36,254 nucleotides of DNA, taken from assembly GCA_031288475.1 (NCBI GenBank), contig JAITRJ010000036.1, positions 1-36,254 of the forward strand, read 5' to 3'. A program made the position numbers and the translations under genes. Shown here one piece after another: positions 12,084 to 27,593 of the stretch; within the stretch, counting starts at the first letter, position 1, and every line of letters starts with the position of its first letter. This DNA is from Helicobacteraceae bacterium. Its GTDB lineage: Bacteria > Campylobacterota > Campylobacteria > Campylobacterales > SZUA-545. The notes beneath the pieces were generated by a model, which saw only the letters and a list, made by a program, of their open reading frames with translations, had not been told where the DNA came from and made no database searches.

Positions 12084-13240
12084 TACGAAGTTGGCAAGAT
12101 TTGCCGCGCCTTTCTGGCTCTGTGCGTCAGCTTTGCCGCCGATACGATCAAGGCAGGCGTGCTTCGCTCGCTTTCGGGTGCGGGGCGATCTCGGAGATGA
12201 CGCTTAAGATCACCGTTCTTTTGCTGGTGGAAGAGCAGAATAAAAAGGGCGGGTTACCGAGCGGTCATCTTTTTTCGCCGCAGCCGCTTAAACGGCTGAG
12301 TGAGAGGGAGGCGCCATTACGCCGCCGCTATCGCTTCGTCGATTCGGAATATTGAAGATGGCGGAAATTCTACGCCGCGGTTGAAACCTTTATCTTCGGT
12401 TGCGCCGCGTTTGGGCTCGCGATCGCCTTCGGCGGAGACTCAAGAAGCAGTAGCTGGAAATTGGAATACTGAATTATGCAAAATCCCAAGATTATGCCAG
12501 TCGACGAACCGGTGATGAGAATGATCCCTTTGGAACAGAGAAGACGGGCGAGATTTAACCGCGCTGATAAGGGATATTCGGTTTGGCGGTGGAGCGCGAT
12601 ATGGAGTTATACGCGTGTTCAACGCCAAAGTTACCGTGCTGTACGAAACGAGGATCGGCGCTTATGGAGAGATCGACGCAGAATATTCAGAACGACGGAC
12701 TGGTTTAAAAGGGCATAACAGCGGATCGCTTTTTGCGAAGATCCACGCCGGACCGGTGAAGATTGAATCGTTTGCGGACGCGCTTCACGAGGTGTATGTA
12801 ACTGGTTATGAATGGACGCGAAACCGCGTTATGCTTCTGATCGTCCTTCTTGGAGATACAATCACCGCGCTGAAAAACAGATTACTTCAATCTGGCGGAC
12901 ATACTGCGCGAATATGAGCAAACAGCCATTTGATCTTGGAAACGATAGAAGGAAATATCTTTTTAACAAAAAGAGAGCGGGAAGGAACGTTAATCTTTTC
13001 CGCCGCGCAGATGGGCTTTGGCAAGAAAAACAGAGGGATAAAGCTGAATTCAGAGGCAGCGGTAATTATAAATTCATTGACTATCAAAGGGACAAGAGAA
13101 GGTACAAACGTTATGGAGCTGATGTCGCCACTGCGCCACTGTTAGAAGATTTAATATACGGCGTGGCGCGGACGATCGATATGGTGCAGATTGAAGCGAT
13201 TTCCGGGCGGGGCTAACCCAACCCCGTGATAAATATAAAC
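12084..13240 (+). other. Coding-poor segment with fragmentary overlapping ORFs (probable decayed gene(s))
   Basis: No single ORF spans it. Peptide-like stretches switch between forward frames (e.g. FNAKVTVLYETRIGAYGEIDAEYSERRTG..., TIEGNIFLTKREREGTLIFSAAQMGFGKKNRGIKLNSEAAVIINSL). Confidence 0.4.
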
Positions 13241-13241
13241 A

Positions 13242-13260
13242 CGCCCTCATAAAGAGAGCG
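13242..13260 (-). terminator. Possible terminator downstream of rpsI
   Basis: Minus strand CGCTCTC-TTTAT-GAGGGCG followed by TGTTTATATTTATC. Confidence 0.4.
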
Positions 13261-13273
13261 CAACAATCGACAT

Positions 13274-13690
13274 TTACCGTTTTGAGAATTGCGGGCTTCT
13301 TCGCGCCTTGTGCTTACCATATTTTTTACGCTCTACCACGCGCGAGTCGCGGGTAAGCAAACCATACGGCTTCAACACGGAACGAAAATCCCCCTCAAAC
13401 TGCGACAGCGCCTTGCTGATGCCATGCCGCAAAGCGTCCGCTTGCGCGGAGTAACCGCCGCCTTGCGTAAACGCGCTTATATCCACCGAGCTTTCCTGCT
13501 TTGTCAGCCGTAGCGGCTGCATCACGCGCATCTTGATTGCTTCGTGTCCGCCCAGCCAAGTGTCTAGATTCAGCCCGTTGATCATCAGCTTGCCAGTACC
13601 CGGCGTCAGCCGCACTTTCGCGATCGCTGTTTTGCGCTTGCCTGTGGCGTATGTATACGCCTGTTTTGTCTGTTTGCCCACTTTGCTCAT
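13274..13690 (-). CDS. rpsI: 30S ribosomal protein S9
   Basis: [20 protein letters not shown]...[22 protein letters not shown]...[25 protein letters not shown]. Confidence 0.97.
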
Positions 13691-14115
13691 TGATTCGCCT
13701 TTATCTGCGCCGTATGCGGATGTTCGTTTGAAGCGTAAACTTTCAGTTTTTTAAGCATTTCGCGTCCCAAATGGTTCTTTGGCAGCATACCGCGCGCGGC
13801 AAGCCTGAAGAGTTTTTCGGGGTTTTTTGCCAGCAGTTCGCCGCTCTTTTCGCTCTTTACGTGTCCGGTAAATCCCGTATGGCGGCGGTACTCCTTCTGC
13901 TGTTTCGTCTCCGTGCTGAAACGCACTTTTGAGGCGTTGATCACCACCACAAAGTCGCCGCAGTCCGCATGCGGGGTGAAACCGGGCTTGTGTTTACCGC
14001 GCAACTTCACGGCAATTTCGCCTATCAGACGTCCAAACGGCTTGTCCGCAGCGTCTATCAACAGCCATTCGCGCCGTACGGTCGCGGCGTTGAGGCTTTC
14101 TGTGAGTTTGCTCAT
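13687..14115 (-). CDS. rplM: 50S ribosomal protein L13
   Basis: [50 protein letters not shown]...[10 protein letters not shown]...[19 protein letters not shown]; start assigned to MSKLTES (14115). Confidence 0.96.
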
Positions 14116-14291
14116 ATCTACTGCCTTTTTCTGCAAATAAATGCGTGATTATAACCGCGCTGTCTTAAGCTCTACTTAATTTATGTCTGGTTTAAGATTG
14201 TTTTTCTCATCATATCCTGTCGAACTCTCTGTTCACGCGGGTTCAGCCATATCCACGGGTTTTGATTCTGGCTTTTGAGCGGTGTTTGAAA

Positions 14292-14320
14292 ATCGTCTGA
14301 TCGCGCGGCGATCAGACGAT
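14292..14320 (-). terminator. Perfect hairpin overlapping the pseI stop codon, terminator-like
   Basis: 13-bp perfect arms ATCGTCTGATCGC/GCGATCAGACGAT with 3-nt loop; on the minus strand followed by TTTTC. Confidence 0.55.
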
Positions 14321-15364
14321 AAGATCAAAAGATACGGCAGTTCCCCGCACAATGTCGCGGGCGGCTCTGCGCCCAACCACCAGGTTCAGCGTTTTTGGTG
14401 GCAGTCCATAACCCGGGCGGATTTTGCCTATATGATCGCGGCGGATTGTTTCGCCCTCTTTGAGATCGCGGATAAAGTACAGCGAACGCCTGAATATCAG
14501 GTTTCCACGCTCCATTTTTGATGGAGCGGATTTGCCTTCCCCCAGCGCGCAAAAGACCTCTTTTACTGCTGTCGAAAGGCGCTTAAACTCACCTGCTGTC
14601 GCTGAAAAACCGCTGTCTACGCCGCCGTTTTCGCGGCTGTCCGTAAAATGCTTTTCGATCACACCCGCGCCCAGAGCAACGGACGCGATTGCGGCGGAGA
14701 TTCCTTTTGTGTGATCGGACAGCCCTATAACCGTCTTGAATCGCCGCGCAAGCCGTTCAATCCGCCGCAGATTTGCCTCCCGGAGAGGAGTCGGATATGC
14801 GCTCACGCAGTGAAGCAGGATCGGCGCTCTGCCGCCCGCCTCAATTGCTGCGTTTACGCTCTCTCTGATTTCCTCCTCGTCAGCCATTCCCGTAGATATG
14901 ATAAGCGGCTTTCTGGTGGAGGCGGCGTAGCGCACCAGATCCAGATCGTTTATCTCGAAACTCGCAATCTTGTAAGCGGGCGCGTTGAGGTTTTCCAGCA
15001 GATCGACGCCGCTTTCATCAAATGGTGTCGAAAACAGCGTAATGCCGATCTTGCGCGCGCGATCAAACATAATCTTGTGCCACTCTGGCGGCGTCTGGGC
15101 GGTTTTATACAGATCGTAGAGCGTATAGCCGTTCCATAAACCGCCCCTGATGACAAACTCTTCCCGCGCGCAATCGATCGTCATCGTATCCGCGGTGTAC
15201 GTCTGTATCTTCACCGCGTCCGCGCCGCTCTTTTTCGCGATCTCAATCAGCCTTAAAGCGCGTTCCAGCGATCCATTGTGATTTGCGGAGAGTTCGGCGA
15301 TCAAATAGGGGGGGGACCCCCCCCCAATCTTGCGGTTATCTATCGAGATAGATAACCGACCCAT
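14312..15364 (-). CDS. pseI: Pseudaminic acid synthase (NeuB family)
   Basis: PPYLIAELSANHNGSLERALRLIEIAKKSGADAVKIQTYTADTMTIDC, STPFDESGVDLLE, SDHTKG, C-terminal SAF domain (RSLYFIRDLKEGETIRRDHIGKIRPGYGL). Confidence 0.9.
   Translation of the reverse strand: MGRLSISIDNRKIGGGSPPYLIAELSANHNGSLERALRLIEIAKKSGADAVKIQTYTADTMTIDCAREEFVIRGGLWNGYTLYDLYKTAQTPPEWHKIMFDRARKIGITLFSTPFDESGVDLLENLNAPAYKIASFEINDLDLVRYAASTRKPLIISTGMADEEEIRESVNAAIEAGGRAPILLHCVSAYPTPLREANLRRIERLARRFKTVIGLSDHTKGISAAIASVALGAGVIEKHFTDSRENGGVDSGFSATAGEFKRLSTAVKEVFCALGEGKSAPSKMERGNLIFRRSLYFIRDLKEGETIRRDHIGKIRPGYGLPPKTLNLVVGRRAARDIVRGTAVSFDLIV
15308..15325. repeat. G8-A-C9 homopolymer inverted repeat inside the pseI 5' coding region
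   Basis: Plus strand gggggggg-a-ccccccccc (15308-15315, 15316, 15317-15325); encodes GGG-S-PP in pseI on the minus strand. Confidence 0.95.
15334..15357. repeat. Perfect inverted repeat at the pseG/pseI overlap
   Basis: GGTTATCTATC-GA-GATAGATAACC: 11-bp perfect arms, 2-nt centre; contains the pseG stop codon and codons 3-10 of pseI. Confidence 0.95.
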
Positions 15365-16748
15365 CCTCGCCTCTCGCCTTTACAAACCGCAGCCCGTCAA
15401 AAACTTTGCAGGCGGCGGCGTTTGACGGCAGAACCTTTGCAGACAGCGGCACGTTGCCGAGCTGATTTACGAAAGTTTTTAACGCCAGCCCAAACGCCTT
15501 TTTACCGATGCCTCTGCTCCTCGCATAGTTGCTCAGCGCGAAAGATATCTGCCACTCGTTTCCGACACGCTCAAAACGGACAAATCCGACCGCAAGCGCC
15601 GCCTTGATCACGTAAAAGCGCGTAAAGGATCGATCGCTGAGCCAGCCGGTGAACCATTTGTGGTACTCATTCGGATCGATCGCGCTCAATCGTTGCATGT
15701 TGTCGCGTACGCATTTTTCATTCTCCAGATCGAAGAGCCACTTTTCGTCCGTTTCGGCAACCTCCCGCGCCGACAGCTCCGTATTTTCGCTCAACATCAG
15801 AATCTCCGCGACTCTCTGCGCGCCAAAGCCATCTACCAGGGCGCGCATCTTCGGAATAATCTCCGTTTTTACGCCGGCGCGCACGATCTCCTGCAAAGCC
15901 CGCGTGATATGATCCGTATCCACCCGATCGCGATAGCCCAGATACCTGATAAGCCCCCGTCTGTCAAGCTCTTCGGACAGCCCGCGCTGATTATCAGCAA
16001 TCGCCACAACGATGCTGAAAAGCCCCATAGCACACCGCTCGTAGCTTGTGGCTCCTCCGGCGCCGATTGCCAGATCGCATTCGTTCATCAGCGAGGCGAG
16101 GCTGGTCAGGTTTTCGTGAATGTGGATATTCCTGCCTTTTTTAGCCAGCTTGCGCACCATTTCCTGATGAACGCCGCTGGGTACGATCTCAAGCGATATA
16201 TCGGGGCGCCTGAGAGTAAGATAGGCGTCGATTGCCCTGCTCGTGAAGTTGTCCCTGTCGGCGTTGCCGAAATAGACAAATATCTTCTTGATCATACTTG
16301 TGCGCTCTCGCTTGATAATCATTGAGTACTCTGGCTGCAATAGGGCGTATCTCGTGCCCAAAAGCTGAACGCAGCGCTCGGGGACAAGCGTTTTATAGCG
16401 CTCGGCGCTCGCGTTCACGTTTTGATCGAGAAGATAATCCGCCATATGCTTTCTGTTCGCCAGATCGTCGATCACAACCACGCGCTTGCAGAAAACGTGC
16501 ATCTTGTTCTCAAACTCGTGATCGAGCGAGTACTGATCAACGACCAGATAATCAAACAGCTCGCTCACCTTGCTTGTAACGCTAAAACCGCTCTGGGTTA
16601 CGCGGTTGCGTAGGACATCGTCAATCGCGTCACACATAAAAACGGATTTTGCTCCGAGTTTGCGCAGCGCGTTTGCGAGGGTAAGGCAACGCATCAGATG
16701 CCCACTGCCAATCTCTGTCGAAGCGTCAGCTCTAAATAGGAATTTCAT
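15336..16748 (-). CDS. pseG: UDP-2,4-diacetamido-2,4,6-trideoxy-beta-L-altropyranose hydrolase (PseG) fused to a C-terminal GNAT acetyltransferase (PseH-like)
   Basis: N-term FLFRADASTEIGSGHLMRCLTLANAL...DQYSLDHEFE; GAGGATSYERCAMGL; C-term KWLFDLENEKCVRDNM...WFTGWLSDRSFTRFYVI...NYARSRGIGKKAFGLALKTF...PSNAAACKVFDGLRFV (GNAT-like). Confidence 0.85.
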   Translation of the reverse strand: MKFLFRADASTEIGSGHLMRCLTLANALRKLGAKSVFMCDAIDDVLRNRVTQSGFSVTSKVSELFDYLVVDQYSLDHEFENKMHVFCKRVVVIDDLANRKHMADYLLDQNVNASAERYKTLVPERCVQLLGTRYALLQPEYSMIIKRERTSMIKKIFVYFGNADRDNFTSRAIDAYLTLRRPDISLEIVPSGVHQEMVRKLAKKGRNIHIHENLTSLASLMNECDLAIGAGGATSYERCAMGLFSIVVAIADNQRGLSEELDRRGLIRYLGYRDRVDTDHITRALQEIVRAGVKTEIIPKMRALVDGFGAQRVAEILMLSENTELSAREVAETDEKWLFDLENEKCVRDNMQRLSAIDPNEYHKWFTGWLSDRSFTRFYVIKAALAVGFVRFERVGNEWQISFALSNYARSRGIGKKAFGLALKTFVNQLGNVPLSAKVLPSNAAACKVFDGLRFVKARGEDGSVIYLDR

Positions 16749-16797
16749 AAATCGTAGTAAATCAGAAATTAAATAAAATTACAAAAAAGGGCGGTCG

Positions 16798-17706
16798 ATG
16801 AAATTGGCGGTGATCGGGGCAGGCAAGTGGGGAGTAGCGTTGCACAACGCATTGCGGCAGGTGGACAAGGACGCCGTAATCACCTCTCGCAAACCCAAAA
16901 ATCTGGCAAATTTTACCGATGAGGCAAGCGCAATCGGCGCGGAGATGATTGTAATGGCGCTGAGCACGCAATCGACGGAGGGTTGGCTTAAAGAACATTT
17001 CCGATTCAACAATCAGGCTGTTCTGGTTTGCAGCAAGGGGATTGAGACCAGCGGCGGCAGATTCTTAAACGAGATATACGAGCGGTTCGTTCCAAGAAAA
17101 AATCTGGCGTTTTTAAGCGGTCCGGGTTTTGCGGCGGAGGTGATTCAAAATCTGCCTACCGCGCTTACAATCGCGGCGGCGGACGAACGGATTGCGGTGC
17201 GGTTTATGAGCTGTTTTCCAAAATGGATCAAAACCTACCGCACAAACGATGTGATCGGCGTGGAAGTAGCTGGCGCGTATAAAAACGTAATCGCGATCGC
17301 TGCCGGTGTGTGCGACGCGCTCAATCTCGGCAGCAACGCGAGGGCGGCGTTGATCACAAGAGGGCTTGCCGAGATGACCCGTTTTGGGATAAAATTCGGC
17401 GCGAAGCTGGAGACGTTTTTAGGACTTTCCGGTGTGGGTGATTTGGCGCTTACTGCAACAAGCGCCCTATCCCGAAACTACAGAGTTGGTCAGGCGCTGG
17501 GAAACAACGAACCGTTGAACGCTGTTCTGGAGCGGCTGGGAGAGGTGGCAGAGGGAGTGCCGACAGCGCAGGCGATCGTTATGCTCTCCGAAAAAAACAA
17601 ACTTTACACCCCTATCGCTAAAGAGGTGGTAGCGGTTCTGGACGGCAAGGAGCCGTTAAGGAGTCTTCAGACGCTTTTAGAGCGTACAAACGAGAAGGAG
17701 TTCTAA
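16798..17706 (+). CDS. gpsA: Glycerol-3-phosphate dehydrogenase [NAD(P)+]
   Basis: KLAVIGAGKWGVALHNAL, FLSGPGFAAEV, GAYKNVIAIAAGVCDALNLGSNARAALITRGLAEM, GLSGVGDLALTATSALSRNYRVG. Confidence 0.95.
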   Translation: MKLAVIGAGKWGVALHNALRQVDKDAVITSRKPKNLANFTDEASAIGAEMIVMALSTQSTEGWLKEHFRFNNQAVLVCSKGIETSGGRFLNEIYERFVPRKNLAFLSGPGFAAEVIQNLPTALTIAAADERIAVRFMSCFPKWIKTYRTNDVIGVEVAGAYKNVIAIAAGVCDALNLGSNARAALITRGLAEMTRFGIKFGAKLETFLGLSGVGDLALTATSALSRNYRVGQALGNNEPLNAVLERLGEVAEGVPTAQAIVMLSEKNKLYTPIAKEVVAVLDGKEPLRSLQTLLERTNEKEF

Positions 17707-17709
17707 ATA

Positions 17710-18945
17710 ATGGAAGAATTCTTAATTGCTGTGAAAAAGGCATCGCGCGTCGCCGCACAGCTTGGCGGCAGAGCGCGGACCGAAATGTTAAACGAGATGG
17801 CGGAGGCGCTGAAAAGCAGAAAAGAAGCCATTTTAAGCGCCAACGAGCAGGATGTTAAAAACGCGCGCTCCAACGCTCTCTCTTCGGCGATGATCGATCG
17901 GCTTTTGCTGAACGATCGAAGGGTCGACGAGATGGCGGAGGCGATCGGCGAAATTGCGGCGCTTCGCGATCCGCTGGGCGGCGTGATCGATGGCTGGACA
18001 AATCCGGACGGGCTTAGGATCGAGAAGGTTAGCGTGCCTATAGGCGTAGTGTGCGTGATATATGAATCGCGCCCGAACGTGACAGCGGACGCAGCGGCGC
18101 TTTGCCTGAAAAGCGGCAACGCGGCGATCCTCAGAGGAGGAAAAGAAGCGGCAAATTCCAATGAAGCGATCATATCGGCGCTGCAGGAGGCGCTTTTGCT
18201 GCGCGCTCTGCCGCCGGAGATGATCGCCGCGCCGCCCGATAACTCGCGCGAAGGGATAAAGGAGTTGATCGGTCAGAACCGATATATCGATCTGGTCGTG
18301 CCGCGCGGTGGCGCGGGTTTGATCCGCTTTGTGAGTGAAAACGCCGCCGTGCCTGTCGTGAAGCACGACAGAGGGCTGTGCCACCTCTACATTCACAAAA
18401 GCGCCGATTACGCAAAGGCGGAGAACATAGCGATCAACGCGAAAGTACAACGCCCCAGCGCGTGCAACGCGATCGAAACGCTGCTGATTGACGCGGATAT
18501 AGCGCCGTACTTTTTACCCCGCCTGAAAACGGCGTTCGATAGGGAAAAGACGGAACTTAGGGGATGTCAGAGCTGCCGCGCGATTATTGACGTGAAAGAA
18601 GCGGCAAGCGACGACTGGGCTATGGAGTATCTGGATAACATCCTCTCAATAAAGGTCGTTTCCGGTATAGACGAAGCGCTTGATCATATCGCCGCGTACG
18701 GTTCGATGCACAGCGAGGCGATTATCGCGGAGAGCGGCGGTGCGATCGAGCGGTTTTTGAACGAGGTAGACGCGGCGTGCGTCTATGCCAACGCCAGCAC
18801 TCGCTTCACCGACGGCGGGCAGTTTGGCTTCGGCGCCGAGGTCGGCATCAGCACCAACAAGCTACACGCGCGCGGACCGATGGGCGTCAAAGAGCTTACA
18901 ACGTACAAGTACCGCGTCTGTGGAAACGGTCAGGTCAGGATTTAA
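17710..18945 (+). CDS. proA: Gamma-glutamyl phosphate reductase
   Basis: GVVCVIYESRPNVTADAAALCLKSGNAAILRGGKEA, PRGGAGLIRFV, HDRGLCHLYIHKSADYAKAENIAINAKVQRPSACNAIETLL, STRFTDGGQFGFGAEVGIST. Confidence 0.96.
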   Translation: MEEFLIAVKKASRVAAQLGGRARTEMLNEMAEALKSRKEAILSANEQDVKNARSNALSSAMIDRLLLNDRRVDEMAEAIGEIAALRDPLGGVIDGWTNPDGLRIEKVSVPIGVVCVIYESRPNVTADAAALCLKSGNAAILRGGKEAANSNEAIISALQEALLLRALPPEMIAAPPDNSREGIKELIGQNRYIDLVVPRGGAGLIRFVSENAAVPVVKHDRGLCHLYIHKSADYAKAENIAINAKVQRPSACNAIETLLIDADIAPYFLPRLKTAFDREKTELRGCQSCRAIIDVKEAASDDWAMEYLDNILSIKVVSGIDEALDHIAAYGSMHSEAIIAESGGAIERFLNEVDAACVYANASTRFTDGGQFGFGAEVGISTNKLHARGPMGVKELTTYKYRVCGNGQVRI

Positions 18946-18947
18946 AA

Positions 18948-19121
18948 GTGCCGTATATAAACATAAAGCTCGCCGGAGAGCTTTCGATCGAGCAGAAACG
19001 GGAGATCGCCAAAGAGGTAAGCGCCGTAATTGATCGCGTAACGGGTAAACCATGTCGATCGTGCTATATCGTTTTTGACGAAGTCAGGCTACTAATTGGG
19101 CTAAAGGAGAGGAAATTTTAA
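18948..19121 (+). CDS. 4-oxalocrotonate tautomerase family small protein
   Basis: GTG-CCG start gives (M)PYINIKLAGELSIEQKREIAKEVSAVIDRVTGKPCRSCYIVFDEV; Pro1 and spacing typical of 4-OT. Hidden within the longer ORF 18777..19121. Confidence 0.75.
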   Translation: MPYINIKLAGELSIEQKREIAKEVSAVIDRVTGKPCRSCYIVFDEVRLLIGLKERKF

Positions 19122-19130
19122 GCGATCAAG

Positions 19131-19703
19131 ATGCGAAAAAGGATCCTTAACATACGAGATCTTTCGTTTGGCTACAAAGATCGCCTCTTGTACGAGGACT
19201 TCTCTCTGGAGGTTTTTGCGGGAGAGATTGTGGCTGTTGTGGGTCCGAGTGGTTGCGGAAAAAGCACGTTGCTTGAGCTGATCGCCGGCGCTTTGCAGCC
19301 TCGCGGCGGTACAATTGAGGCGGGAAGAATCTCGCAGATTTTTCAAGATTCGTACAGTTCTTTTCACCACAGTTTTACGATTGAGAGCCAGATACGAGAC
19401 GTTGCCGATATGACAGAGGCGGAAACGCTTTGCGCAAGACTTTGCGTTCAGCGCGAACTGCTCCTGAAAAAACCGTACGAGCTCTCCGGCGGGCAGTTGC
19501 AACGGCTTTCGATTTTACGCGCTCTGTTGATGAAGCCGGAGCTGATCCTGGCGGACGAGCCTACCAGCGCGCTTGACAATCTTACGCAGCTTGAGGTGAT
19601 GAAGCTTCTGATCTCTCTGCTGGATCAAGTCGGCGTACTGCTGATCACGCACGATACCGCGCTTGCAAATTGGTGCGCGGATAAAATTGTAAACCTCGCC
19701 TGA
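19131..19703 (+). CDS. ABC transporter ATP-binding protein
   Basis: Walker A GPSGCGKSTLL, signature LSGGQLQRLSILRALL, Walker B LILADEPTSALD, H-loop LLITHD. Confidence 0.9.
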   Translation: MRKRILNIRDLSFGYKDRLLYEDFSLEVFAGEIVAVVGPSGCGKSTLLELIAGALQPRGGTIEAGRISQIFQDSYSSFHHSFTIESQIRDVADMTEAETLCARLCVQRELLLKKPYELSGGQLQRLSILRALLMKPELILADEPTSALDNLTQLEVMKLLISLLDQVGVLLITHDTALANWCADKIVNLA

Positions 19704-19760
19704 CGCCTTTCGTTCAAGCCGTCTTTGCTCGGATATGCTGTTTTCCGTCAGCGCGCCTTC

Positions 19761-19807
19761 TTCGCCGTTTTTGCACAGCGTCTTTTCAGTCTGACAGATC
19801 AGCGAAT
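19761..19807 (-). pseudogene. Decayed fragment of dnaK (C-terminal region)
   Basis: 40 of 47 nt identical to 22201-22247 in dnaK; minus-strand reading SLICQTEKTL versus Dna[11 protein letters not shown]. Confidence 0.75.
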
Positions 19808-19815
19808 GACCGCGT

Positions 19816-21045
19816 TCAACGCGCTAGCACCGCATCGTTTCTTCGCTTATCGCGTATTTGCGCTAAGTTTATAGGCGTAACGTTTGAGCGCAAAAATCGA
19901 CGGAAACTCGAAGGAAGCGGGCAGTTTTGCAAAGCGCGCTGGGAAAATAGATAGCGCCTGTCGCACACGAAACCAAGCTCTTTCCAGTCGACTTCGCGGT
20001 TTAACGCCAGCGTCAAATCAGTCATCGCGTCGTTGGAAAATTCGCCGTTTTTAAGAAACAAGGCAAGAATTGAGCCGTCAAAATGGGGACTTTTATGCAG
20101 AAAGAATGGATCGGCGCGGCGGGTTTTGACATTGACATAAACGCGTGGACGCGCGCTGAGCGGATAGGCGCGTCCCCACTGCCACCAGTTTGACTCGTCA
20201 AAACGTCGAACGCGGCGATCGATCAACCGATCTTTATAAGCTTCCAAACGCGGATGTGGCGTATTGTAGATCATTCGTCTGGTCTTACCTGTCTGCGCGG
20301 TTTTTGAGTATACAAAGTCGAGATTACCGCTTGAATGCGTAAAAATATCGTCCGCTCCCGATACACCACCCACGCAAACTTCAAACAAATCGCTAAAAGA
20401 AAGATCGTAATCGCCACGCAGAAAAGCAAACTGTCCGTTAATTTCGGCAAAACGCCGCCCATCCGCCATATTACGATCAAAACGTCCCTTTTCAAAACGG
20501 AAGATCGCGCAGTTTGGCGTGAAACGCCCAAATATATTGCTGTCTCCCGTTTCAATGAAATGAGTAATTGAACCTTGTCCAAACAGCCATTTATTTAATT
20601 TTTTCGCGGCGGTTAATTTAATAAACTCACGAGGAACGATAAATATCAATTCACCGCCAATATTTAAATGTCTCACGCACTTTTCTATAAAAAATAAAAA
20701 CAGATTGCTCCGTCCGTCAAACAGATCGGATTTAAGCAGCTTTAACGTTTGCGGGCAAATATCCTGATAGCGCACGTAGGGCGGATTGCCGACAATCGTA
20801 TCAAATTTTTCGTCGATCGGATAATCGAAAAAATCTATCGTTTTAGCGTCAATCGGCGCAATTTTCTTGTCAATTTCGATCGCGACGCATTCGCGATTCA
20901 TTTGTTTGACGGCGTTAAAAAACGCGCCGCAACCAGCCGACGGCTCTAAAATCCTTCCGTTATTTCGACGCAGTTTAAGCATCTGCTCGACAACATTAGG
21001 CGGCGTCCAGACCTGACCCAAACTTTGTATATTGTGACTGATCAC
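19816..21045 (-). CDS. Type II DNA adenine-N6 methyltransferase
   Basis: SAM motif ILEPSAGCGAFFNAV, catalytic IVGNPPYVRYQDI, followed by REFIKLTAAKKLNKWLF; 409 aa. Confidence 0.88.
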   Translation of the reverse strand: MISHNIQSLGQVWTPPNVVEQMLKLRRNNGRILEPSAGCGAFFNAVKQMNRECVAIEIDKKIAPIDAKTIDFFDYPIDEKFDTIVGNPPYVRYQDICPQTLKLLKSDLFDGRSNLFLFFIEKCVRHLNIGGELIFIVPREFIKLTAAKKLNKWLFGQGSITHFIETGDSNIFGRFTPNCAIFRFEKGRFDRNMADGRRFAEINGQFAFLRGDYDLSFSDLFEVCVGGVSGADDIFTHSSGNLDFVYSKTAQTGKTRRMIYNTPHPRLEAYKDRLIDRRVRRFDESNWWQWGRAYPLSARPRVYVNVKTRRADPFFLHKSPHFDGSILALFLKNGEFSNDAMTDLTLALNREVDWKELGFVCDRRYLFSQRALQNCPLPSSFRRFLRSNVTPINLAQIRDKRRNDAVLAR

Positions 21046-21722
21046 AGTTTAATCCTGTCACCGAAATATTTATTGAAACTGCCCCAAGCGTCCGCGCGAA
21101 GCTTAAAAGTTTTTCCAAGCGTTTGCAGAATGTAGTTTTGCGCCGCGTCGCCGTTGCGGTCGTTTCGCTCGCGGTTTTTACTCCAGTCGCATTGAAACGG
21201 CGGGTTAGCGCCGTTTGGCGTAAACTCCGAAAGAGTCTTAAGGCTAGTCCAGAATACGTCACCCAAAACGAGCTTATTTACGATCAGAAAATAATAGTCC
21301 GCGTCAGGATTTTTGTTTAGATTTTTTGCTAAAAGATTAAAGAAACTATTCCAATCGTTAATGTTAAGTGTCTTCGGATCAACGCCAGTTAAAGCGTAAA
21401 AAACTCCACTTTTGCTTGAAAGATTATCGTTGCCCTTAAGCGTTGAAACTTTTATATTTATGGGCAGAAAAACGCCGCCTTTTTGCGATATTGCGAAGTC
21501 ATACCAGAATCGAGGCTGCGGCAGGGTAATGTTCAGTTTTGCGCTCTTAAAACGCTCGTTTACTAGGGCAAACAGGCAGAGCGCCTCGGCAATTTGCCGC
21601 TCGTTCGCCTGCGAGTTCAGCCGCCCGTCCGCTTCCGATTTTGCTAGATTGATAGCTTTATTAGCAAGCGAGTCGGACAGATAGGCGCTAAGACTATCCA
21701 GTATTTCCACTGCGTCTTTCAT
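21042..21722 (-). CDS. Putative type II restriction endonuclease partner
   Basis: 226-aa ORF overlapping the methyltransferase start by 4 nt; PRFWYDFAISQKGGVFLPINIKVSTLKG resembles a D-x(n)-(E/Q/N)xK nuclease core. Confidence 0.7.
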   Translation of the reverse strand: MKDAVEILDSLSAYLSDSLANKAINLAKSEADGRLNSQANERQIAEALCLFALVNERFKSAKLNITLPQPRFWYDFAISQKGGVFLPINIKVSTLKGNDNLSSKSGVFYALTGVDPKTLNINDWNSFFNLLAKNLNKNPDADYYFLIVNKLVLGDVFWTSLKTLSEFTPNGANPPFQCDWSKNRERNDRNGDAAQNYILQTLGKTFKLRADAWGSFNKYFGDRIKL

Positions 21723-21960
21723 ACATCTCCCAAACCAAAGCGTTTGCGAATAATAACAAAATCGATCCGCCTACAGTTTGAACGCTCCCAATTTTGCTTG
21801 GAGCGCGCACGACAAGCAAACGCGCAGCCCTTTTCAATCGGCGCAGCGTCCCTGAGGGAATCGCCCTCTTAAGCATAGCGCGCCCCGTTTGGCTAAAGGG
21901 CTATTTTATGGAGCTGTTTTAGCGCGGCGTCCCCGATTTTGCTTGAGGTAAGCGCCGCGC

Positions 21961-23847
21961 CTACTCCACTTCGGCGTCGATCACGTCGTCCTGTTTTGGT
22001 TTTGCGCCCTGATCGCCGCTTACGCCGCCGCCTTCGCCCGATTGCTTTTTATACATCGCTTCGGCGAGCTTGTGGCTTGCCTCCGTAAGCGCTTTGATCT
22101 TGTCGTCAATCTCCTGCTTGCTTGCCCCCTCTTTGGCGATCGTTTCTTTAAGATTGGCGATCGCCGTTTCAATCTTGCCTTTATCCTCCGCGCTTACCGC
22201 GTCGCCGCTTTCGCGCAGCGTCTTTTCGGTCTGGTAGATCAGCGAATCGGCTTGATTTCTGGCGTCAACAATCTCTTTGCGCTTCTTATCCGCCTCACGG
22301 TTGGCATCGGCTTCTTTAACCATACGGCCGATCTCCTCCTCGCTCAAGCCAGACGACCCCGTGATAGTAATTTTGTTCTCTTTGCCCGTGCCTTTGTCTT
22401 TGGCGTTGACGTTCAGAATACCGTTCGCGTCAATGTCGAAGGTAACCTCAATCTGCGGCGTTCCGCGCGGCGCTGCGGGAATGCCCGAAAGCTCAAACAT
22501 GCCAAGCGACTTGTTGTCGCGGCTGAACTCCCGCTCGCCCTGGAGCACGTGTATGCTCACCGCCGGTTGGTTGTCCTCTGCCGTGGAGAACACCTGCGAT
22601 TTTTTGACTGGAATCGTCGTGCCTTTTTCGATCAGTTTCGTCATCACGCCGCCTAACGTCTCTATGCCCAGCGAAAGCGGCGTTACGTCCAGCAACAGCA
22701 CATCTTTCACGTCGCCGCGAAGCACGCCGCCCTGTATCGCCGCGCCCGCCGCGACAACCTCGTCGGGATTAACCCCTTTGTGAAGCTCCCTGCCAAAGAA
22801 ATTTCTCACCACCTCCTGAACTTTAGGTATCCGCGTAGAGCCGCCCACCATCACAACCTCGTTGATCGCCTCTTTGCCGGCGTCCGCGTCCTTGAGCGCT
22901 GTTTTGATGTGCTGAAGCGTTTCGCTTATCTGATCGTCGATCATCGCCTCAAACCTGGCGCGGGTGAGCTTGGTAACAAGGTGCTTCGGTCCCGCCGCGT
23001 CGGCTGTGATAAACGGCAGGTTAATTTCGGTCTCCGTCGCGCTGGAGAGCTCTTTTTTCGCGTTCTCGGCAGCGTCTTTAAGCCGCTGAAGCGCCATTTT
23101 GTCGTTTTTAAGATCGATGCCGTTCTCTTTTTTGAACTCTTCAGCAAGCCAGTCGATCACGCGGTTGTCGAAATCGTCGCCGCCCAAGAAAGCGTTGCCG
23201 TCGGTGGAAAGCACCTCAAACACACCGTCGCCCACGTCGAGAACGGTAACGTCGAACGTGCCGCCGCCTAAGTCGTAAACAAGTATTTTTTCTGCTTTCT
23301 TCTTATCCAGTCCGTAGGCAAGCGACGCAGCGGTCGGCTCGTTGATAATTCTAAGCACGTTCAATCCCGCGATCACGCCCGCCTCTTTGGTCGCCTTGCG
23401 CTGCGCGTCGTTGAAATACGCGGGCACGGTGATTACCGCGTCGGTAATCGTTTCGCCCAAAAACTCCTCGGCGTCCTTTTTGAGCTTCATCAGCACCTTC
23501 GCAGAAATCTCCTGCGGCGTGTAGGTTTTGCCTTCTATATCCACCGCGCAGGCGCCGCCTTTATCGACGATGCTGTAGCTCACCTTCGCCTGAGCGCTTT
23601 TGGCGTTCTGCTCGTTCATCATCAAGCCCATAATCCGCTTGATCGAATAGATGGTCTTTTTTGGATTGGTGATCGCCTGCCGTTTGGCGCTGTCGCCCAC
23701 CAGAACTTCGCCTTTGTCGGTAAAAGCCACGACGCTCGGCGTGGTGTTGCGTCCTTCTTTGTTGGGGATAATTTTGGCTTCGCCGGCCTCGAAAATCGCC
23801 ATGCACGAATTGGTCGTGCCCAAGTCGATACCTAATACTTTGCTCAT
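21961..23847 (-). CDS. dnaK: Chaperone protein DnaK
   Basis: [42 protein letters not shown] ... [23 protein letters not shown] ... full-length Hsp70. Confidence 0.98.
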
Positions 23848-23849
23848 CT

Positions 23850-24371
23850 TTAACTCCTTTTATTTACTGAAACCAGCGACGGGCGCAGCAATCTTTCCTT
23901 GTAGCGCCAGCCCTGCTGCATAACCTGCGCGATCGCGTTGTCCTCCAGCGCTTCGTCGTCCGTCTGTGTAATTGCCTCGTGCAGCGCGGGATCAAAGCCG
24001 TTTTCATGCGTTACGGGCAGAACGCCGTACTTTTCAAACGCCTTGATCAGCGCCGCTTTGGTCAGATTGACCCCCTCTTTAAGCTGCTCGAAGTGATCGC
24101 TCTGATCGATTTTTAGCGCCATTTCCAACGCGTCGATCACGGGTAGGAGGTCTTTGGCAAAGCCTTCGCTGGCGTAATCGATCGCTTGATACTTCTCTTT
24201 CTCCAGCCGTTTTTTTATGTTTTCAAACTCCGCATAGGCTCTTAGGTAGCGATCCTGCGCCTCGTTATATTTGGCTTCAAAATCTATAGCTTCCGTGCTT
24301 TCCGGTTCCTGCCCCTGCGGCGCCTCGTCCGCGCCGCTTCCCTCTTCCGTCTCCAGCGCCTCCTCGCTCAC
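23850..24371 (-). CDS. grpE: Nucleotide exchange factor GrpE
   Basis: [45 protein letters not shown] ... FEKYGVLPV...[10 protein letters not shown]; start assigned to GTG at 24371. Confidence 0.92.
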
Positions 24372-25144
24372 GCGTCCTCCTTTCGTATATTGCTGATAAA
24401 TCCAAGATAATCGCGGCAAATCGTGCCGCACGCCAGCAGGATTGCGTTTTGGCTGTCCACGCTGGTCCTCTGCGCGAGAAACATAGCGTCGTTGCCAAAG
24501 TAGATGCCGCTGCTCATCTCAGCGATTATTTGACCGTCGTACAATCTGTCAAAATCAATGTCCGCCTTGGCGGAAAGCTCAATAAGCGTCTCCTTGTTAA
24601 ATCGCTCGACCTGAGAGCGCTCAATCTGCCACAGAGCGTGGTAAAGTGCGTCAATGCGGTTACTCCGCGCAATTGAGAGCAGATCACTTATATCGTAACC
24701 AAAAAACTCCGTCAGCAGCCGCTCGATCACGTTTGAGTACTTGATCGCCGCCGCCCCGCGCTCAAACTCCGCAATCAGCGTTCCCCGCTTTGTCCGACTC
24801 AGATCGACAAGACGGTTCTGGCTTCTGATGTGCAGAAGGGCGTAGAGTCCGAAATTCCTTGCCACGTCGGCTATTTTTCTCAGCTCGATCTCGCAGCTTT
24901 CGTCATAGCTGAGCGCCTCCCGCCAATAGCTTTTAAGCGCTGCGTTCGTCGGAATCCGCCCGCTGCTTGAGTGAATCTGCGTGAGATATCCCTCTTCCAC
25001 CAGCCGCCTGAAGTAATTGCGTATGGTTGCGCTGGAAAGATCGGCGGTAATCGCTGACCTGAGTTGCGAGGAACCTATCGGCTGCTCACTTTTGATATAT
25101 CTGTAAACCACCTCGCGGAGAATGGTTTTTTCAATCTCCTTCAA
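24368..25144 (-). CDS. hrcA: Heat-inducible transcription repressor HrcA
   Basis: ILREVVYRYIKSEQPIGSSQL...LSSATIRNYFRRLVEEGYLTQIHSSSGRIPT; upstream of grpE-dnaK. Confidence 0.92.
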   Translation of the reverse strand: MKEIEKTILREVVYRYIKSEQPIGSSQLRSAITADLSSATIRNYFRRLVEEGYLTQIHSSSGRIPTNAALKSYWREALSYDESCEIELRKIADVARNFGLYALLHIRSQNRLVDLSRTKRGTLIAEFERGAAAIKYSNVIERLLTEFFGYDISDLLSIARSNRIDALYHALWQIERSQVERFNKETLIELSAKADIDFDRLYDGQIIAEMSSGIYFGNDAMFLAQRTSVDSQNAILLACGTICRDYLGFISNIRKEDA

Positions 25145-25172
25145 CCTGACTGCCCGTTCTTCCTAATTAAAA

Positions 25173-25199
25173 TTAGCACTCTCTGCTTAGAATTGCTAA
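25173..25199 (-). promoter_or_regulatory. CIRCE element (HrcA operator), one degenerate half
   Basis: TTAGCACTC-N9-AATTGCTAA versus consensus TTAGCACTC-N9-GAGTGCTAA; left half perfect, right half 7/9; just upstream of hrcA. Confidence 0.85.
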
Positions 25200-25264
25200 C
25201 GCGAGTATACAATGTTTAGTGTGTTGTTGTCAAGGTTGATTTTTGAATCCCCCGTTTCACGCCT

Positions 25265-26088
25265 TCAGTCTCTTTCAAACACAAACTGGTTGCAGCCCAG
25301 CCTCCCTCCGTATGTAACAAGACGCGCACGGCTATCGCCTTGCGCGGTAAAAATCGAAGATCGCTTCCGGCTTGGCAACTTCAAACGGATAGCCGCCCAG
25401 CCAGCCGATCGTGTCGCATACCGCGTTTTGATATAAGTGTGAAGGGTGTAAAACGGGCGCGGCCTGCATAGGTCTCTGACAGCGATGGGAACCCAGACGC
25501 ACAATCACAGTAAAGCGCCCTTTCAACCATTTAACCGGGCGCGGCGAAGCGCAGCAGCTTTTTTTGCTCCGCGCCAGATCTTGGACATAAAGCCCCGATC
25601 GTTATAGATCGATATGAACAGCGTCCCGCCGTTTGGCTTAACAAGCCCCGCCTATATTTGAAAGCGCCTTCCACAGCCCCCGTGTGATGCAGAACGCCCA
25701 GACGACATCAAACCTGCCTAAGGATGCCAGATAGGCCGTGATCGAGAACACTTCCCTCGCTGATCGACCAGTCTGGATCATCCGCGAAGTAGCGATCTTT
25801 GAGGTTTTGCGTACAAGCGACGCACACGCAATCGTAGTCTAAGCTGACGACGTTCGCCTTCAGGCGTCTTGCCGCAAGCGAATGGATGCCGCTGCCGCTG
25901 CCGCTTCCCGCGTCCAGAAGCTTTTCCCCCTCCAGCGTATCAACTTCAAATATCTCCTTTAGGGCGCGTTCACTCTCCGCGATCTTCGCGTCGTTAAAGT
26001 TTTTGAGAAACGACGCCCAGTTTGAGCTAAAATCAAACCGTTCGCAGTTTGCTTGCATTCCGCCGCGCTTAACTTCGGACGTTTTCAT
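25265..26088 (-). pseudogene. Frameshifted class I SAM-dependent methyltransferase
   Basis: N-terminal segment EGEKLLDAGSGSGSGIHSLAARRLKANVVSLDYD in one frame; later segments in other frames (RFDVVWAFCITRGLWKALSNIGG; SPRPVKWLKGRF...IGWLGGYPFEVAKPEAIFDFYRARR; TYGGRLGCNQFVFERD). Confidence 0.75.
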
Positions 26089-26103
26089 ATTTTTGACCAG
26101 AGT

Positions 26104-26634
26104 TCAGTACAAACCGAAACGACCGTCTTTGCGCCAATAAACAACACGCATCGCGCTGCTATCCTTGTCGATAAAGACCAGAAACGACTGATTCGATTCG
26201 CGCAGAAAAAGCGTCGCCTCTTGAACGCTCATCCTGTTGTCTGGCTTCGTTTCGATCACCTCGTTTGGTTCCGTATCGCTGTAGACAAACGGAATATCTG
26301 CCTCCAACTGCTTGTGAGGCGTTTCTTTGCCAATCTTGCTGCTGATCTTATCCTTATAACGGCGCAGCACCTTCTTCGCCCGATCCGCCGCCAGATCGCA
26401 GGCGGCGTAAAAATCCTTGTCCGCGTGCTTGATCACCACGGTGTCGCGATGCGCCATATGAATCGTAAACTCAATCTGCACGTTCGGCTTGCCATGCTTG
26501 CTGTCGTCCTCTATGATCGCTTTAACCGCTATGATGTTCAGATTGTATTTTCCAAACTGCTCGAACGCCTTCTCGACATATTCGCGCATAGCGTCGGTAA
26601 GCTCAAGCCTTCTGGCGACAATACCTGTATTCAC
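26104..26634 (-). CDS. hpf: Ribosome hibernation-promoting factor, long form
   Basis: MNTGIVARRLELTDAMREYVEKAFEQFGKY...C-terminal EATLFLRESNQSFLVFIDKDSSAMRVVYWRKDGRFGLY; GTG start with AGGAGG. Confidence 0.9.
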   Translation of the reverse strand: MNTGIVARRLELTDAMREYVEKAFEQFGKYNLNIIAVKAIIEDDSKHGKPNVQIEFTIHMAHRDTVVIKHADKDFYAACDLAADRAKKVLRRYKDKISSKIGKETPHKQLEADIPFVYSDTEPNEVIETKPDNRMSVQEATLFLRESNQSFLVFIDKDSSAMRVVYWRKDGRFGLY

Positions 26635-26783
26635 GGCGCCTCCTTTTATAATCGTTATTTTTAAAGTATAAAATTATGCCTTGTGTAACATTTAAGCACG
26701 GTTTTACAAAGAGTCGTTGAGAGTAACGATGACAGGGCGGCAAGGGATGCGCTGTTGATTTTGTAAATTTTGAAGGAGAGGCG

Positions 26784-27593
26784 TTGAGGATAATGATGAT
26801 AGGGGACGTGGTGGCGAAGGTTGGGCGGAGAGCGCTCTTAGCCGCCCTTCCCGCGGCGAAAAAGATGTTTGATATTGATTTTGCGGCGGCAAACGGCGAA
26901 AATCTCGCGCACGGCTTTGGGATCACCGAAAAAACAGCGGGCGAGCTTTTTCGCGGCGGCGTCGATCTGATCACGGGCGGCAATCACACGTGGGATCGCA
27001 AAGAGGTCGTCCCCCTTCTGGAGAGCGCCCCTATTATCCGCCCGCTGAACTACCCCTTCGGCGCGGCGGGTAAAGGGATATTCCACGCTGACATAAGGGG
27101 CGGAAAACTGGCGGTAATTAACCTTCTCGGCTTTATGGGGTACGTGGATAACCCCTTCAACGCCGCGCTTCGCGCGGTAGACGAGCTGCGGGGCGACGGA
27201 ATCAAACACATCGTCATCGACTTTCACGCCGAAACCACGAGCGAAAAAAACAGCCTTCTGAAGCTGCTGGAAGGTAGAATCAGCGCACTGTGCGGAACAC
27301 ACACGCATATCGGCACCGATGATCTGCTGATAGCAAACGGTACCGGCTATGTGAGCGATATTGGATTAACGGGGATTAGAAACGAAGTGATAGGGATGTG
27401 TTCAAAGGAGCCGATTTCGCGGTTTACGACGGGTATCAGGCGGGCGTTTGAGGCATGCGAGGGAGAACTTACCATATTTCAGGCGGTTATCTTTGAGTTG
27501 GACGATCAGGGACGGTGCATGGACGCGTTTAAGATCAAGTCGTTTGACGGCGGCGAGATCGCCGTGTCAATGCGCCGCAGTCCGGGATGGTGA
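26784..27593 (+). CDS. ymdB: YmdB-family metallophosphoesterase (TIGR00282-type)
   Basis: MIGDVVAKVGRRAL, ANGENLAHGFGI, GGNHTWDRKE, DFHAETTSEK, GTHTHIGTDD, YVSDIGLTG. Confidence 0.9.
   Translation: MRIMMIGDVVAKVGRRALLAALPAAKKMFDIDFAAANGENLAHGFGITEKTAGELFRGGVDLITGGNHTWDRKEVVPLLESAPIIRPLNYPFGAAGKGIFHADIRGGKLAVINLLGFMGYVDNPFNAALRAVDELRGDGIKHIVIDFHAETTSEKNSLLKLLEGRISALCGTHTHIGTDDLLIANGTGYVSDIGLTGIRNEVIGMCSKEPISRFTTGIRRAFEACEGELTIFQAVIFELDDQGRCMDAFKIKSFDGGEIAVSMRRSPGW

Follow-up and report, generated by a model that had tools for sequence, protein, structure and literature searches.

A type II restriction-modification (R-M) operon, complete and apparently intact, lies between the gene for an ABC transporter ATPase and the dnaK 3′ end in a Helicobacteraceae genome, and a decayed 46-nt fragment of dnaK stands beside it. 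We consider it fairly probable that recombination brought the operon to the side of dnaK and duplicated part of that gene in the same event, and that the extra copy then decayed. The arrangement has the look of a common mark left by horizontal acquisition, an event of a known kind.

The window, that is, the whole stretch of DNA analysed, spans 36,254 nucleotides. From left to right, the ABC transporter ATPase gene (19131–19703, plus strand) forms the left flank and is followed after about 57–58 nt by the decayed dnaK fragment (19762–19807, with the dnaK sense on the minus strand). After a further 8–9 nt comes the end of the gene for a TaqI-like N6-adenine DNA methyltransferase with an NPPY motif (19816–21045, minus strand), whose start is overlapped by 4 nt by the gene for a type II restriction endonuclease of the PD-(D/E)XK fold (21042–21722, minus strand). 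An intergenic gap of 238 nt (21723–21960), unique in the assembly, separates the endonuclease start from the stop of the intact dnaK gene (21961–23847, minus strand), after which come grpE and hrcA. The dnaK segment that matches the fragment (22202–22247, minus strand) lies 240 nt inside the gene, counted from its stop, and therefore the R-M pair has the fragment on one side and the end of dnaK on the other, rather than a 46-nt copy on each side. The methyltransferase and endonuclease genes are the only genes between the two repeat copies, and the coordinates bear out an earlier reading of the sequence alone, which placed the pair between the relic and the dnaK 3′ end. There is no tRNA integration site in the window and no integrase in the interval, and except for dnaK itself the flanks of the operon are not repeated elsewhere in the genome. 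The endonuclease-dnaK gap also holds two hairpin-like units (21783–21815 and 21928–21960) with a common loop, CCCnATTTTGCTTG, which has two matches in the window where 0.15 are expected by chance.

The dnaK fragment and the intact dnaK gene

Is the fragment a genuine copy of dnaK, and how much of it survives? A repeat finder run over 18000–25000 returned the fragment and the dnaK segment as the longest direct repeat, with 87% identity over 46 nt (40/46). The sequence-only reading, counting from 19761 against 22201, had reported 40/47 identical positions with six transitions among the seven differences; recomputation gives the same figures, the seventh difference being a transversion, and the peptide SLICQTEKTL that it read from the fragment and aligned to 10 dnaK residues is likewise correct. 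It had left open whether the match exceeds chance, which it does by far: the local alignment score is 62, whereas 1000 dinucleotide-style shuffles average 22.5 and never exceed 38, and a search of the 1.25-Mb assembly gives no strong second match other than the dnaK segment (E 9.6e-10). Gapped extension of the alignment reaches 56/73, and the flanks beyond the core do no better than shuffles, which equal them in 84% of cases on the 3′ side and 31% on the 5′ side. Since neither flank outside the core beats shuffled sequence, about 46 nt of the dnaK copy survive as a short remnant. Gapped alignment to the dnaK genes of this genome and its relatives likewise gave no significant support for a longer copy, and the suggestion that local alignment around 19700–19815 might lengthen the relic brought no significant gain on either side.

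The best match of the fragment is the dnaK of its own genome (40/47). Among 30 other dnaK loci none exceeds 37, the score reached by G010 and G014, and the sister species G002 scores 36. Most of the differences from the resident dnaK are GC-to-AT transitions, a bias that would fit unselected decay, and three of the seven fragment-specific bases are present in relatives (in TAT, ACT and AAC codons, in G010 and others), so that the source may instead have been a close relative. The fragment differs from its own dnaK by 13–15%, less than the 27.5% divergence at dnaK fourfold sites between this genome (G000) and G002. Therefore the duplication does not appear clearly older than the split of these two lineages, and these values, which come from few sites and carry a wide error, would be compatible with a duplication made at the time of the split or later. 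The intact dnaK, for its part, keeps the same identity to G002 and G010 across the repeat. This evenness shows the gene to be native and vertically inherited along its whole length and not replaced by a donor end; a foreign dnaK tail was rejected on this basis, and the donor end expected under the earlier suggestion of a segment from a related genome carrying its own dnaK end is not seen.

The R-M enzymes and their origin

The methyltransferase matches PF07669 and the PADLOC model MTase_II (3.3e-122), carries the motif GNPPYVRY near residues 86–93, of which NPPYV is kept in 6/6 aligned sequences, and has the BseCI and TaqI methylases as its nearest solved structures. No family model in Pfam, NCBIfam or PADLOC recognizes the endonuclease, and its predicted structure (pLDDT 91) resembles R.SwaI, HincII and EcoRV. 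Thus, in motifs and in the predicted fold of both enzymes, the pair is like type II systems that combine a TaqI-like methyltransferase (M.TaqI, M.BseCI) with an endonuclease of the EcoRV/HincII/SwaI kind. The pair differs from these systems in that the endonuclease family lacks a Pfam model and in its conserved core, D75 with P87-x-N89-x-K91, where N89 occupies the position that is D or E in most PD-(D/E)XK enzymes. This Asn is invariant in 12 homologues. Endonuclease homologues stand beside methyltransferases at 11 of 80 loci, and also in G007, G011, G013 and G044. Both reading frames are intact, and the pair should act as an ordinary defense and self-maintenance system, in which the methyltransferase would mark adenines and the endonuclease would cut unmarked DNA. 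Most homologues lack an equivalent of the last ~20 residues of the methyltransferase (encoded from about 19884 downward); because they stop near residue 385–390, the tail may be read into junction sequence. The methyltransferase homologue of G044 is likewise longer.

A tree of 83 methyltransferases puts the window enzyme inside a clade of Betaproteobacteria, mostly Rhodocyclales (support 100/99), apart from the enzymes of family members G007, G009 and G011, which group in another clade with those of Bacteroidota and other Campylobacterota. Its branch is long and its exact sister unsure. Because the enzyme groups with those of Rhodocyclales and not with those of its own family, the R-M pair was acquired horizontally, with betaproteobacterial affinity; the GC content of the R-M genes is 45–46%, below the 52% of the window and the 55% of dnaK. 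The Rhodocyclales methyltransferases closest to the window enzyme (L120–L159) have no endonuclease homologue within 5 kb and look like solitary chromosomal methyltransferases. The junctions of R-M genes with a dnaK 3′ end that the earlier reading anticipated in other genomes were not found: dnaK lies within 5 kb of the methyltransferase at 0/80 loci in GTDB genomes, the R-M copies of family members have other neighboring genes, all of them different, and none of the other copies has a dnaK fragment nearby.

The sister junction and the proposed route of entry

The window was compared with G002, a sister species of the same genus whose DnaK is 95% identical. The window is collinear with this genome at about 87% over 13186–19703 and 21962–26938, and there too the ABC gene and dnaK occur in the same order and orientation. 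The G002 junction lacks both the R-M genes and the fragment, and the genome has one dnaK copy. In their place stand about 900 nt with a tRNA-Gly(CCC) and the flavodoxin gene fldA. The search for an empty site thus yielded the expected flanks free of operon and fragment, but not the ABC gene directly next to dnaK. Insertion with a long target duplication needs an empty site that is single-copy and otherwise identical, and the G002 junction differs from this in its content. No remnant of tRNA-Gly or fldA occurs in the window gap; in the window's own assembly the tRNA-Gly is on contig C21 and a flavodoxin end is on C28, where ppk and the gene for a Na/Pi transporter lie close by. Since the flavodoxin gene of G010 is also near ppk and the Na/Pi gene, the content of the G002 junction is itself probably derived, and the ABC/dnaK junction is variable in both genomes. 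A CRISPR array with 32-nt repeats, GTCGCGCCCATCGCGGGCGCGTGGATTGAAAC, is present in the window's genome at L115 (G000:C47, 90–1370) and at the end of L114 (G000:C21); a single copy of this repeat occurs near the tRNA-Gly on C21, and in G002 a degenerate one (17 nt) lies upstream of the tRNA-Gly in the ABC/dnaK junction.

We propose that the type II R-M operon inserted at the dnaK 3′ end, next to the ABC ATPase gene, at about the time when the lineage split from G002, or after. The event would have used or made a duplicate of some of the dnaK 3′ region, and the non-functional copy on the left would have been largely lost and have decayed, with 46 nt left beside the methyltransferase end. We infer the recombination route and, from the adjacency of fragment and operon alone, their origin in one event. 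By one route, the R-M unit inserted with target duplication; by the other, foreign DNA integrated through a homology anchor in dnaK while its second end joined illegitimately. The evidence fits either route. The Kobayashi group has described R-M units whose target duplications are on the order of 100 bp (PMC3874152, PMC3031569). The present locus is like these in that an R-M operon without other mobile genes, beside a direct repeat of chromosomal sequence, is seen by comparing related genomes; it is unlike them in that 46 decayed nt are all that remains, the repeat does not abut the operon on the dnaK side, and there is no clean empty site. Homology-facilitated illegitimate recombination has been proposed for Vibrio T6SS modules (PMC5361080). 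Here, similarly, a conserved gene could serve as the anchor while the other end joins without homology, with foreign genes added and others displaced, although the dnaK fragment would be an extra feature that this route does not need.

In favor of acquisition with duplication of a dnaK piece are the significance of the fragment and its closest match to the host's own dnaK, the collinearity of G002 on both sides of a junction without operon or fragment, the foreign phylogeny of the methyltransferase together with the low GC content of the R-M genes, and the modest divergence of the fragment, the even dnaK identity and the GC-to-AT differences. Of the earlier reading, horizontal acquisition and a sister junction free of operon and fragment are supported; the lack of a clean empty site counts against the explanation. 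Also against it, the 46-nt copies are asymmetric about the operon, the right copy being internal to dnaK; and because only 57 nt separate the fragment from the ABC gene, whatever else of the dnaK tail was duplicated must since have been lost by deletion.

Alternatively, the fragment could be independent of the operon, as debris of an earlier joining of ABC and dnaK or of an unrelated tandem duplication, the R-M genes having come later into an unstable gap. We regard this as unlikely but deserving of weight. Within the family ABC and dnaK are neighbors in G000 and G002 only, with wholly different gap contents, and almost every family member has different genes downstream of dnaK; yet G002 has the same junction and no dnaK fragment, and the fragment ends 9 nt from the methyltransferase stop. 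It is more doubtful that fragment and operon arrived together on DNA of a related genome in which the R-M genes lay next to dnaK. The three bases shared with relatives would agree with such a source, but the host's dnaK is still the best match, no R-M system with this kind of methyltransferase was found near dnaK at the 80 loci, and the methyltransferase is of betaproteobacterial type whereas the fragment belongs to the host's own family. An integrative island can restore the end of its target gene and leave the displaced piece at its opposite edge, and the general layout of the locus is like this. That the 46-nt dnaK segment was the attachment core of such an island, its integrase since lost, is nevertheless very improbable: the element differs from site-specific islands in having no integrase or recombinase gene, the interval has no tRNA, the core is only 87% identical, the dnaK tail that an island would have brought should be foreign and is not, and the defense loci beside dnaK in G001 and G010 have no such repeats. 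Finally, a chance match or an assembly chimera is scarcely credible, for although the draft assembly is in 58 contigs, the genome-wide E is about 1e-9 and collinearity with G002 on both sides makes a chimera unlikely.

Defense genes on the 3′ side of dnaK

Could the dnaK 3′ side be a more general integration point, as the sequence-only reading had suggested? In G001 (L060, 7460–12471) PDC-M11A/B and type I methyltransferase and specificity genes lie 3′ of dnaK, and in G010 (L061, 8449–12234) SIR2, HerA and a DUF3644 gene (PDC-S19) lie directly 3′ of it. The type I methyltransferase frame of G001 is split in two. Counting the window, unrelated defense systems thus occur 3′ of dnaK in 3 of 10 family genomes and in 0 of 20 genomes of other families, a comparison that includes the discovery case (p 0.03, or 0.09 when it is left out) and treats the genomes without regard to their kinship; in those 20 genomes, the 89 proteins encoded within 5 kb of dnaK give no PADLOC match at 1e-20. 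The other evaluable family members have ordinary 3′ genes with single-gene model matches (PycC, mad3 and a nicking-endonuclease model), which we judge incidental, and the 5′ side of dnaK, taken as a control, shows isolated matches only (mad3 twice, PDC-S01 and mad8). The unrelated systems in G001 and G010 speak for an integration point; against it, no junction sequence is shared after dnaK and no dnaK duplicates lie beyond the defense genes of G001 and G010. Likewise, there is no integrase among the genes scanned 3′ of dnaK in these two genomes. Together the counts are no more than suggestive of a defense hotspot 3′ of dnaK in this family.

At the least, the locus adds one more type II R-M pair without a transposase or integrase beside a duplicated piece of a housekeeping gene. 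It is a long shot, in our judgment, that the dnaK 3′ side is a genuine defense landing site in this Campylobacterota family, where systems would be gained without an integrase by dnaK-anchored recombination and dnaK fragments would be the scars. If dnaK does anchor such gains in the family, essential conserved genes would serve as landing sites for defense genes without att sites.
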